NCBI GenBank assembly: GCA_002838205.1
Contig: CP017950.1
Span: forward strand, 124,001-188,000
Origin: Tenericutes bacterium MZ-XQ
Lineage (GTDB): Bacteria > Bacillota_I > Bacilli_A > Acholeplasmatales > Acholeplasmataceae
Length of the DNA: 64,000 nt
Direction: 5' to 3'
The notes beneath the pieces were generated by a model. The model was not told where the DNA came from and made no database searches. It saw nothing but the letters and a program-made list of their open reading frames with translations. Below, in pieces: positions 8,315-62,852 of the stretch; position 1 is the stretch's first letter, and every line of letters begins with the position of its first letter. The position numbers were made by a program, and so were the translations under genes.

Positions 8315-8508
8315 GGGAGATACAGAGGCGCAGTTTATTGGTAACTTAAAAGTGATAAGAATTTGATCATTCAATATTTTAAGTGAATGAATAAATTGCC
8401 GAAAATTTAATGAGGATCAAATCATTAGATTTGGTAAGTAAAGGTACACTTTACTTACTGCCATTTTGTAATGGAGAGCTGTGGCATGCAGTTCTCTTTT
8501 TATTTTTT
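8315..8508 (+). promoter_or_regulatory. Lysine riboswitch (L box) with terminator
   Basis: All L-box elements are present. The conserved segment AGAGGCGC starts at 8324. P2 is 8330-8339 with 8390-8399, and P2b is 8344-8351 with 8377-8384. The GCCGAA junction starts at 8398. P3 is 8403-8413 with 8422-8432. A perfect 10-bp stem is 8434-8443 with 8449-8458. A small hairpin (CCATT/AATGG) is at 8461-8474, followed by conserved GGAGAGC. Loop TTTGATC (8362-8368) can kiss loop GATCAAA (8415-8421). The terminator is GAGAGCTG (8474-8481) with CAGTTCTC (8489-8496) plus a T tract. The P1 strand CTGTG (8479-8483), pairing with TACAG (8321-8325), overlaps the terminator's left arm, so ligand-bound P1 should prevent termination. 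Confidence 0.88.
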
Positions 8509-61288: not shown

Positions 61289-61318
61289 TTTACAAATGAA
61301 TAAAGATATTGCTATAAT
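61289..61318 (+). promoter_or_regulatory. Promoter of the ppa transcript
   Basis: -35 TTTACA (61289-61294), 18-base spacer, -10 TATAAT (61313-61318). The riboswitch aptamer starts about 15 bases later. Confidence 0.65.
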
Positions 61319-61335
61319 GTTTTTGTATATGATTT

Positions 61336-61538
61336 TCGTATAAGTTATCTGAGATGGAGATAACGTTTCTACCGAAATGCCTAACATTTCGACTACGATT
61401 GTATAAACATTTAGGGGTTGTTTTGCTAACGTAGCATTGATATGCGGATAATTATCATACAAGCGGGATATAGTGGGATAAGTAACATCGTCTATATTTC
61501 TAAAAAACACCTTCACTTTTTTGGGGTGTTTTTTTTCT
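61336..61538 (+). promoter_or_regulatory. Guanine-type purine riboswitch with terminator
   Basis: P1 TCGTA (61336-61340) / TACGA (61394-61398); P2 GTTATCT / AGATAAC with loop GAGATGG; the invariant TTTCTAC junction (61366-61372); P3 CGAAAT / ATTTCG with loop GCCTAAC. The loops can pair through GG-CC. The specificity base corresponding to C74 is C93 of the 61300 block (61393), which points to guanine/hypoxanthine rather than adenine. Terminator: AAAACACCTT (61504-61513) with GGGGTGTTTT (61523-61532). GGTTGTTTT (61416-61424) could act as antiterminator. The roughly 90 bases between form three further hairpins of unknown purpose. The next gene, ppa, starts 47 bases after this region. Confidence 0.85.
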
Positions 61539-61584
61539 AAATATAATGCTAAAATAATAATGTGTTAAAAAGGAGACGGATGAT

Positions 61585-62115
61585 ATGAATATTTGGCATG
61601 ACATAAGCAAGTCACGAATTACACCTGATAAGTTTATTGCGTGTATTGAAATTTCTAAAGGATCAAAGAAAAAATACGAACTTGATAAGGAAACAGGCAT
61701 GATTATTTTAGATCGTATATTGTTCACATCAACGCATTATCCTGCAAACTATGGATTTATTCCTAGAACATATGCTGGAGATAATGACCCACTTGATGTT
61801 TTAGTTCTTTGTCAAGAAGATATTGAACCTTTATCAATTGTTGAATGTTACCCTATTGGAGTAATGAAGATGATTGATTCAGATGAAATCGATGAGAAGA
61901 TCATTGCCATTCCATTTGGAGATCCATCATTAACACAATACAAAGATATCAGCGAGTTACCTGCACATTTACTCACAGAAATGGGACACTTCTTTGAGGT
62001 GTATAAATCACTTGAAGGTAAAAAAACATATATTCTAGATATCGAAGGTAAAGAAGCAGCAAAAAAAATTATCGTTGAAAGCATAAAGACATACGACAAA
62101 AAATTTGGAAAGTAA
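61585..62115 (+). CDS. ppa: Inorganic pyrophosphatase, family I
   Basis: 176 residues. It hydrolyses pyrophosphate released by biosynthetic reactions. Motifs: YELDKETGMIILDRIL near residue 31, YPANYGFIPRTYAGDNDPLDVL with the metal-binding DxDPxD-type site near residue 65. AAGGAGACGG precedes the ATG. It is the first gene after a guanine-type riboswitch, and yebC follows 11 bases downstream. A second TATAAT (61542-61547), after the riboswitch terminator, might give riboswitch-independent expression. Confidence 0.95.
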   Translation: MNIWHDISKSRITPDKFIACIEISKGSKKKYELDKETGMIILDRILFTSTHYPANYGFIPRTYAGDNDPLDVLVLCQEDIEPLSIVECYPIGVMKMIDSDEIDEKIIAIPFGDPSLTQYKDISELPAHLLTEMGHFFEVYKSLEGKKTYILDIEGKEAAKKIIVESIKTYDKKFGK

Positions 62116-62126
62116 GGTTTAAAAAC

Positions 62127-62852
62127 ATGGGAAGAGCGTTTGAAGTTCGTAAGGTTGCTATGGGTAAGACCGCAGCACAAAAATCAAAATTATATGCTAA
62201 ATATGGCAAAGAAATTTATATGGCAGCAAAGAATGGGGTTCCTGATCCTGAACTCAATCAATCTTTAAAACGTGTGATCGAAAAAGCGAAAAAAGATCAA
62301 GTCAGTGCGGACGTTATCAAAAGAGCTATTGATAAAGCAAAAGGTGGTTCTGAAGATAGTTATGCCGAAGCAAGATATGAAGGGTTTGGACCTGGAAATT
62401 CAATGTTTATCGTTGAATGTTTAACAGACAATGTGAATCGCACCATCGCAGAGGTAAGAAACTGTTTTACTAAAACAGGTGGCAAGTTAGGTGTTTCTGG
62501 TTCTGTATTACATCAGTTTAATCATCAAGCTGTATTTACAGTACCTGGATTATCTGAAGATGAAGTCTTAGAAATACTCGTTTTAAATGATGTCGATGTT
62601 ACAGATATCGAAACAGATGAAGAAGGTGTTACAATTTTAGGTGAAGCTAAAGACTTTAATCAAATTAGAACAGCTTTTCAAGAGCATAATCCTGATATAG
62701 ACTTTATCACAGAAGAAATTATGTGGCTTCCTTTAATGGAAACAGAGCTTTCAAATGAAGATGAAGAACAACAGTTTAACAGACTGATGGATATGCTAAA
62801 TGAACTCGATGATGTACAAGATGTTTATTATAATGTTAAACAAGGTAAGTAA
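62127..62852 (+). CDS. yebC: YebC/PmpR-family protein
   Basis: 241 residues, standard length. The three-domain YebC fold begins MGRAFEVRKVAMGKTAAQKS and contains DPELNQSLKRVIEKAKK and YEGFGPGNSMFIVECLTDN. Members act as transcriptional regulators or, as shown recently for some, as factors helping ribosomes through proline stretches. It follows ppa by 11 bases and is probably co-transcribed. A terminator follows. Confidence 0.93.
   Translation: MGRAFEVRKVAMGKTAAQKSKLYAKYGKEIYMAAKNGVPDPELNQSLKRVIEKAKKDQVSADVIKRAIDKAKGGSEDSYAEARYEGFGPGNSMFIVECLTDNVNRTIAEVRNCFTKTGGKLGVSGSVLHQFNHQAVFTVPGLSEDEVLEILVLNDVDVTDIETDEEGVTILGEAKDFNQIRTAFQEHNPDIDFITEEIMWLPLMETELSNEDEEQQFNRLMDMLNELDDVQDVYYNVKQGK

Follow-up and report, generated by a model that had tools for sequence, protein, structure and literature searches.

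A guanine-type riboswitch RNA upstream of ppa in Acholeplasmataceae appears to be coupled to a conserved small RNA

Why does a guanine riboswitch stand in front of ppa and yebC, unusual neighbours for such an element, and what is the structured insert between its aptamer and its terminator? Both features were pointed out in a preliminary description of 64,000 nucleotides from Tenericutes bacterium MZ-XQ (CP017950.1, positions 124,001 to 188,000; hereafter the window). Both were found here: the genes are correctly named, and the insert lies where it had been placed. The aptamer forms its own predicted transcription unit between folD and ppa, with its promoter in the gap after folD. The parts of this region, in window coordinates, are as follows.

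61290-61318, plus strand: leader RNA promoter, sigma-70-like, with TTTACA, a 17-18 bp spacer and TATAAT (61313-61318)
61325-61537, plus strand: terminated RNA, from the G of GTATATG (predicted start, 6 nt past the -10 box) to the end of the T-run
61316-61415, plus strand: guanine-type aptamer, RF00167, 65 bits, C74 at 61393
61503-61537, plus strand: strong intrinsic terminator, from the sequence; present in all homologues
61585-62115, plus strand: ppa, inorganic pyrophosphatase (PF00719, 8.1e-60)
62127-62852, plus strand: yebC (PF01709, 3.8e-47)

The covariance-model search with RF00167, which had been proposed as a check, covered the whole model at 61316-61415 on the plus strand and scored 65 bits, well above the gathering score of 37. 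By homology, the identity as a purine-riboswitch aptamer is certain. J3/1 (GACTACG) sets C74 at 61393, the specificity base named earlier, U51 is retained, and J2/3 is GTTTCTACC. Since C74 and U51 are both present, the established purine-riboswitch rules make the aptamer guanine-type, neither adenine- nor 2'-deoxyguanosine-type. The predicted start uses the -10-to-start spacing that is usual in Acholeplasma (PMC5138195). TTTACA-N17-TATAAT is retained in nearly all homologous leaders, and the whole leader folded better than 200 of 200 shuffles (z -3.9). The window's own genome (G000) has two further purine riboswitches. One precedes guaB; the other, a guanine riboswitch at G000:C1:255582-255683, has a terminator and no same-strand gene behind it, and transposase-like ORFs follow on the opposite strand. 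Elsewhere in the window, a lysine riboswitch (RF00168, 76 bits, 8315-8489) overlaps at its 3' end the first ORF as called, and the genes behind it resemble lysine fermentation, not lysine synthesis.

To follow the leader through the order, we crossed the positions of RF00167 matches with those of ppa in 160 genomes and read the stretches upstream of ppa. There were 28 leaders of this kind, the window's and those of 27 relatives, all in Acholeplasmataceae and spread over six genera. Placement upstream of ppa was constant in all carriers. The insert, for which a lack of conservation had been named as the contrary outcome, is conserved in the relatives. The leader RNA is real and conserved. No such RNA was found in the ppa-upstream stretches of G003 (from the window's genus), the three g11 genomes, or the g9 genomes G025 and G034. 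In another family, of the Paracholeplasma type, a guanine riboswitch is followed by an NCS2 permease gene and then ppa in G043; other genomes were assigned by position only. Copies of GGGATTAGTAACAT near riboswitches in G023, G032 and G008 lie inside an NCS2 permease coding sequence and were not counted.

The insert had been described as three hairpins. The one pairing 61465-61473 with 61492-61500 stood, and is called H3 here; the segments 61424-61436 and 61441-61459 turned out, in the predicted fold, to be parts of longer-range helices. H3 led to a second locus.

61465-61500, plus strand: hairpin H3 with a conserved segment; arms vary with pairing kept (GATATAG/CTATATT, AAGCG/CGCTT, CACATA/TATGTG, GAAACAT/ATGTTTC)
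61475-61489, plus strand: GGGATAAGTAACATC, perfectly complementary to the small RNA between topA and tpx, from a second genomic copy on the strand opposite that RNA and from covariation
G000:C1:895333-895434, minus strand: sRNA-C (name given here), unannotated, about 105 nt, predicted between topA and tpx

The arms of H3 vary freely while pairing is maintained, and the central segment GGGGATAAGTARCATC is nearly invariant. Exactly one more exact copy of this 15-mer is present in the own genome, where about 0.005 would be expected. That copy is the opposite strand of a predicted intergenic transcript between topA and tpx. The transcript, sRNA-C, has a promoter (TTTACA/TAATAT), a hairpin (TGCATCC/GGATG), single-stranded TTACTTATCCCCTATTT, a second hairpin, AAAATCCCCTTAAT and a terminator. 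It carries two single-stranded CCCC motifs, has a fold z of -5.3 and gave no match in an Rfam search. It is conserved across the family, with two-sided changes in 18 of the 23 pairs of its consensus structure. A divergent second copy was seen at G001:C2:14985-15077 (minus strand, E 1.9e-4), on the 93-kb second contig of Tenericutes bacterium MO-XQ.

We compared the two sides of the 16-nt duplex species by species. Among 20 genomes with ungapped sites, 276 cells were Watson-Crick, 30 G-U and 14 mismatched, and a departure from the consensus on one side was usually matched on the other. The leader/sRNA-C pair is AAC/GTT in G000, G001, G008, G021, G074 and G083 and AGC/GCT elsewhere. At position 12, A-U replaces G-C in g1, g5 and G074/G083. 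G075 has GCAGC/GCTGC, with C-G replacing U-A; two pairs are changed in G070 (TTGCACC/GGTGCGA); both sides are changed in G004 (TAATGTAAC/GTTACATA, that is, ATG/CAT). Duplex energies were calculated with pairing restricted to the site, a procedure that replaced full-length RNA duplex folding, which gave over-extended duplexes. In 21 genomes, matched duplexes had a mean of -28.7 kcal/mol compared with -25.7 kcal/mol for swapped partners. None of 20,000 random matchings (mean -25.9 kcal/mol) was as low as the own-genome pairing, and other segments of the same leaders gave a mean of -7.5 kcal/mol. Mean pair counts alone barely differ (15.3 own, 15.0 swapped) because both sides are strongly conserved and the signal sits in the variable positions.

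The presence of the two partners agrees as well. Every one of the 23 genomes with an intact motif has sRNA-C; it was not found in any of the five with a degenerate motif (G006, G016, G019, G076 and G079). The search also found no sRNA-C in G003, G025 and G034, all without the leader RNA, so that in G003 both RNAs are gone. The Fisher test over all these genomes gave p 1.3e-7 for this co-occurrence, with losses spread over four genera; shared ancestry of the species makes both this test and the permutation test overstate independence. We read the topA-tpx gap in six of the eight genomes without sRNA-C: the small RNA was gone or a remnant, and a terminator was usually left. G076 retains AAAATCCCCTTGAT; G003 retains promoter and terminator. 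The g11 genomes, without a leader, were excluded from the count, having a weak, diverged sRNA-C match only (E 2e-4 and 1e-3). In G050, from another family, and in four genera of Acholeplasmataceae, sRNA-C also occurs without the leader RNA, so the dependence looks one-way. Taken from sequence comparison, trans pairing between the H3 site and sRNA-C is very probable.

These results bear on two other explanations. The insert might hold a further metabolite aptamer that forms a tandem with the guanine-type one, and a conserved segment inside a covarying hairpin without an Rfam match would suit that idea. A ligand pocket is not expected to change in step with a small RNA across species, as this segment does. 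We rejected the second aptamer as a candidate and consider it highly improbable. The earlier suggestion of a second sensing element thus survives as a conserved hairpin complementary to a small RNA, not as a candidate metabolite pocket. The locus might also be an ordinary guanine riboswitch that terminates ppa-yebC through a long antiterminator spacer, with the complementarity to sRNA-C incidental. Its aptamer and terminator are typical, and the G043 order of guanine riboswitch, NCS2 permease gene and ppa shows these neighbours in another arrangement too. Chance is a poor explanation for a 16-nt complementarity in which changes are compensated and losses are matched. Covariation strongly disfavours this explanation, a promoter-like site downstream of the terminator (below) also counts against it, and we regard it as very unlikely. 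An upstream ORF in the insert was rejected too: the frame, open in the window, ends early in G004 and G030, and what is conserved is the nucleotide sequence.

The remainder of the insert takes part in a fold that competes with the aptamer. The evidence for it is sequence comparison together with energy models.

61322-61341, plus strand: P0 5' strand (P1 5' strand plus J1/2), from homologue minimum-energy folds and covariation counts
61439-61463, plus strand: P0 3' strand, within the insert, from folds and covariation; compensated in G012 (GTGTTG/CAACAC)
61393-61434, plus strand: hairpin H1, joining J3/1 CTACG with CGTAG and holding AGGGG (61413-61417) in its loop, from folds and covariation
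61413-61424, plus strand: AGGGGTTGTTTT, putative antiterminator strand with complementarity to terminator arm 61503-61512, from leader comparison

The insert stretch TTATACAGGTACTTAAATACA is complementary to the RNA's 5' end, which reads GTATTTAATTATCGTATAAG in most leaders, and in H1, CTACG at 61393-61397 pairs with CGTAG at 61430-61434. Nearly all homologues gave the same architecture as single-sequence minimum-energy folds: P0 enclosing P2, P3 and H1, then H3, then the terminator. In the P0/H1 fold 92% of alignment cells pair, compared with 20-52% in slid registers, and four P0 pairs show two-sided changes. G012 no longer scores as a purine aptamer, and P0 is retained there with changed pairs (GTGTTG/CAACAC, CCGCATC/GATGCGG; z -4.6). 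Aptamer P1 and the full P0/H1 fold are mutually exclusive. Within H1, AGGGGTTGTTT is complementary to the 5' arm of the terminator, and this complementarity tracks arm changes in G030 and G021, which suggests that AGGGGTTGTTT is an antiterminator strand. The "long-range antiterminator spacer" of the preliminary description was thus partly right: the stretch directly behind the aptamer is complementary to the terminator 5' arm, and competition with P1 is possible for a different part of the insert. The AGGGG of the putative antiterminator strand also complements sRNA-C's second CCCC motif.

We then considered whether guanine controls ppa at all. One more element lies between the terminator and the gene.

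61547-61555, plus strand: TGCTAAAAT, promoter-like extended -10 of ppa, past the terminator; retained in almost every genome, including those that lack the RNA

Almost every genome, whether or not it has the leader, carries TGnTAAAAT or a close variant between terminator and ppa start. In a published promoter map of Acholeplasma laidlawii, ppa is assigned to a YebC/PmpR site (PMC5138195). Given this map and the downstream site, expression of ppa probably does not need the riboswitch transcript. The site points toward the case that had been named as contrary to riboswitch control, with ppa expressed from a promoter past the terminator. Its presence also in RNA-less genomes weakens the earlier assumption and makes ordinary guanine control of ppa doubtful. 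Of the five genomes with a degenerate motif and no sRNA-C, three have an altered aptamer core, compared with one of the 23 others (p 0.01). The changes, with positions assigned by eye, are C50U in G006, C50A and A52U in G079, and loop L2 in G019. They suggest that guanine sensing serves the partnership with sRNA-C. In G076 and G016 the aptamer is fairly intact and sRNA-C is absent; in G012 the pairing site is retained and the recognisable aptamer is gone.

Our preferred reading is that the RNA acts as a guanine-responsive partner of sRNA-C, probably a sponge or decoy, and that ppa is transcribed mainly from its own promoter. As a whole, we favour this statement by a modest degree. A separately started and terminated RNA, 61325-61537, would join the guanine aptamer to the sRNA-C site (H3, 61475-61489, about 16 nt). 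In the absence of guanine, P0/H1 would be its resting fold, leaving H3 and the GGGG loop of H1 exposed. Guanine would shift the balance toward P1, which is incompatible with the full P0/H1 fold, and would thereby change the H1 GGGG loop and the antiterminator. From the sequence, guanine is predicted to affect the antiterminator and also the H1 loop, whose sequence matches sRNA-C's second CCCC motif. A conformational switch of this kind is more likely than not. When P1 was forced in silico, the unpaired probability of the H1 loop fell from 0.79 to 0.47, and the H3 site was equally open (0.57 and 0.55). This is the weakest step: exposure of H3 does not change, which leaves guanine with little predicted control over the main pairing site. 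Both the direction of the pairing and the effect of guanine are what we infer. The fuller proposal, in which guanine, through folding of the riboswitch RNA, would set the free amount of a family-wide CCCC-motif small RNA, is therefore a tentative one.

The same pairing could instead work on the leader. In that case sRNA-C would control termination before ppa, guanine and sRNA-C would be two inputs, and ppa-yebC would be the real target. The pairing site does lie between the antiterminator strand and the terminator, the AGGGG matches the second CCCC motif, the antiterminator complementarity follows the terminator-arm changes in G021 and G030, and the site is constantly upstream of ppa in all carriers. 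Yet the promoter-like site past the terminator is there in almost every genome, whether or not the RNA is present, and altered aptamers in three of five sRNA-C-less genomes would be unexpected if the purpose were guanine control of ppa. We consider a leader controlled by sRNA-C rather unlikely, and a sponge the likely role of the two. Like riboswitch-derived trans-acting RNAs, the leader is terminated (its transcription is predicted), complementary to another transcript and conserved; like a sponge, it has an extended conserved pairing with a small RNA, here of 16 nt.

We explored which mRNAs sRNA-C might act on. AGGGGAT is overrepresented before ATG in the own genome (30, compared with 13 for the reversed pattern), and it is found at purA in G000, G001 and G004 and at guaC in G004. 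AAGGGGAT, complementary to the second sRNA-C motif, was observed at the ribosome-binding site of purA (G000, G004) and of guaC (G004). These sites would make biological sense for a guanine circuit. They were not retained in g3 or g5, the other genera compared, and AAAGGGGAA precedes purA even in G003, which has no sRNA-C; purA and guaC are thus unsupported as family-wide targets. Separately, G062:C11 and G066:C14 have similar leader regions with GGGGATAAGTAGCAC or GGGGGTAAGTAGCATG, and the G066 copy overlaps the start codon of a zinc-ribbon-like gene. These regions are a possible mRNA target of sRNA-C in the Acholeplasma laidlawii group.

Compared with RF00167 guanine riboswitches, the RNA shares the aptamer sequence, C74, U51, the P2/P3 hairpins and a downstream terminator. 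It differs in a conserved P0 made from aptamer strands, in a trans pairing site and in its place before ppa, which has its own promoter-like site. Other systems resemble parts of it. The SAM riboswitches SreA and SreB of Listeria also yield a terminated product that base-pairs in trans with another RNA, SreA pairing with prfA mRNA (PMC8079631); here the partner is a conserved small RNA and the ligand guanine. Rli55 and EutX, small RNAs containing a B12 riboswitch, sequester the protein EutV (PMC8079631). They are likewise ligand-controlled RNAs that sequester a regulator, which here would be an RNA held by pairing. The E. coli sponges ChiZ and IspZ are short terminated RNAs from 5' UTRs that pair with small RNAs (PMC7815308), and have no metabolite aptamer. 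The PRPP-guanine tandem riboswitch (PMC5912903) also joins a guanine aptamer to a second input, which is a metabolite aptamer there and an RNA here. In the papers searched, which covered few subscription journals, we found no guanine riboswitch described as pairing with a small RNA or as controlling ppa. Nor did those papers contain any riboswitch acting by base pairing on a small RNA, or a characterised base-pairing small RNA of Acholeplasmataceae.

The leader ties a metabolite aptamer and base pairing to a small RNA together in one molecule, with evolutionary evidence of mutual dependence, and the co-varying sites are natural compensatory variants. For Acholeplasmataceae a new conserved small RNA is added. 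A riboswitch before an unexpected gene may serve something other than that gene, and in these bacteria guanine sensing appears to be linked with a regulatory small RNA.
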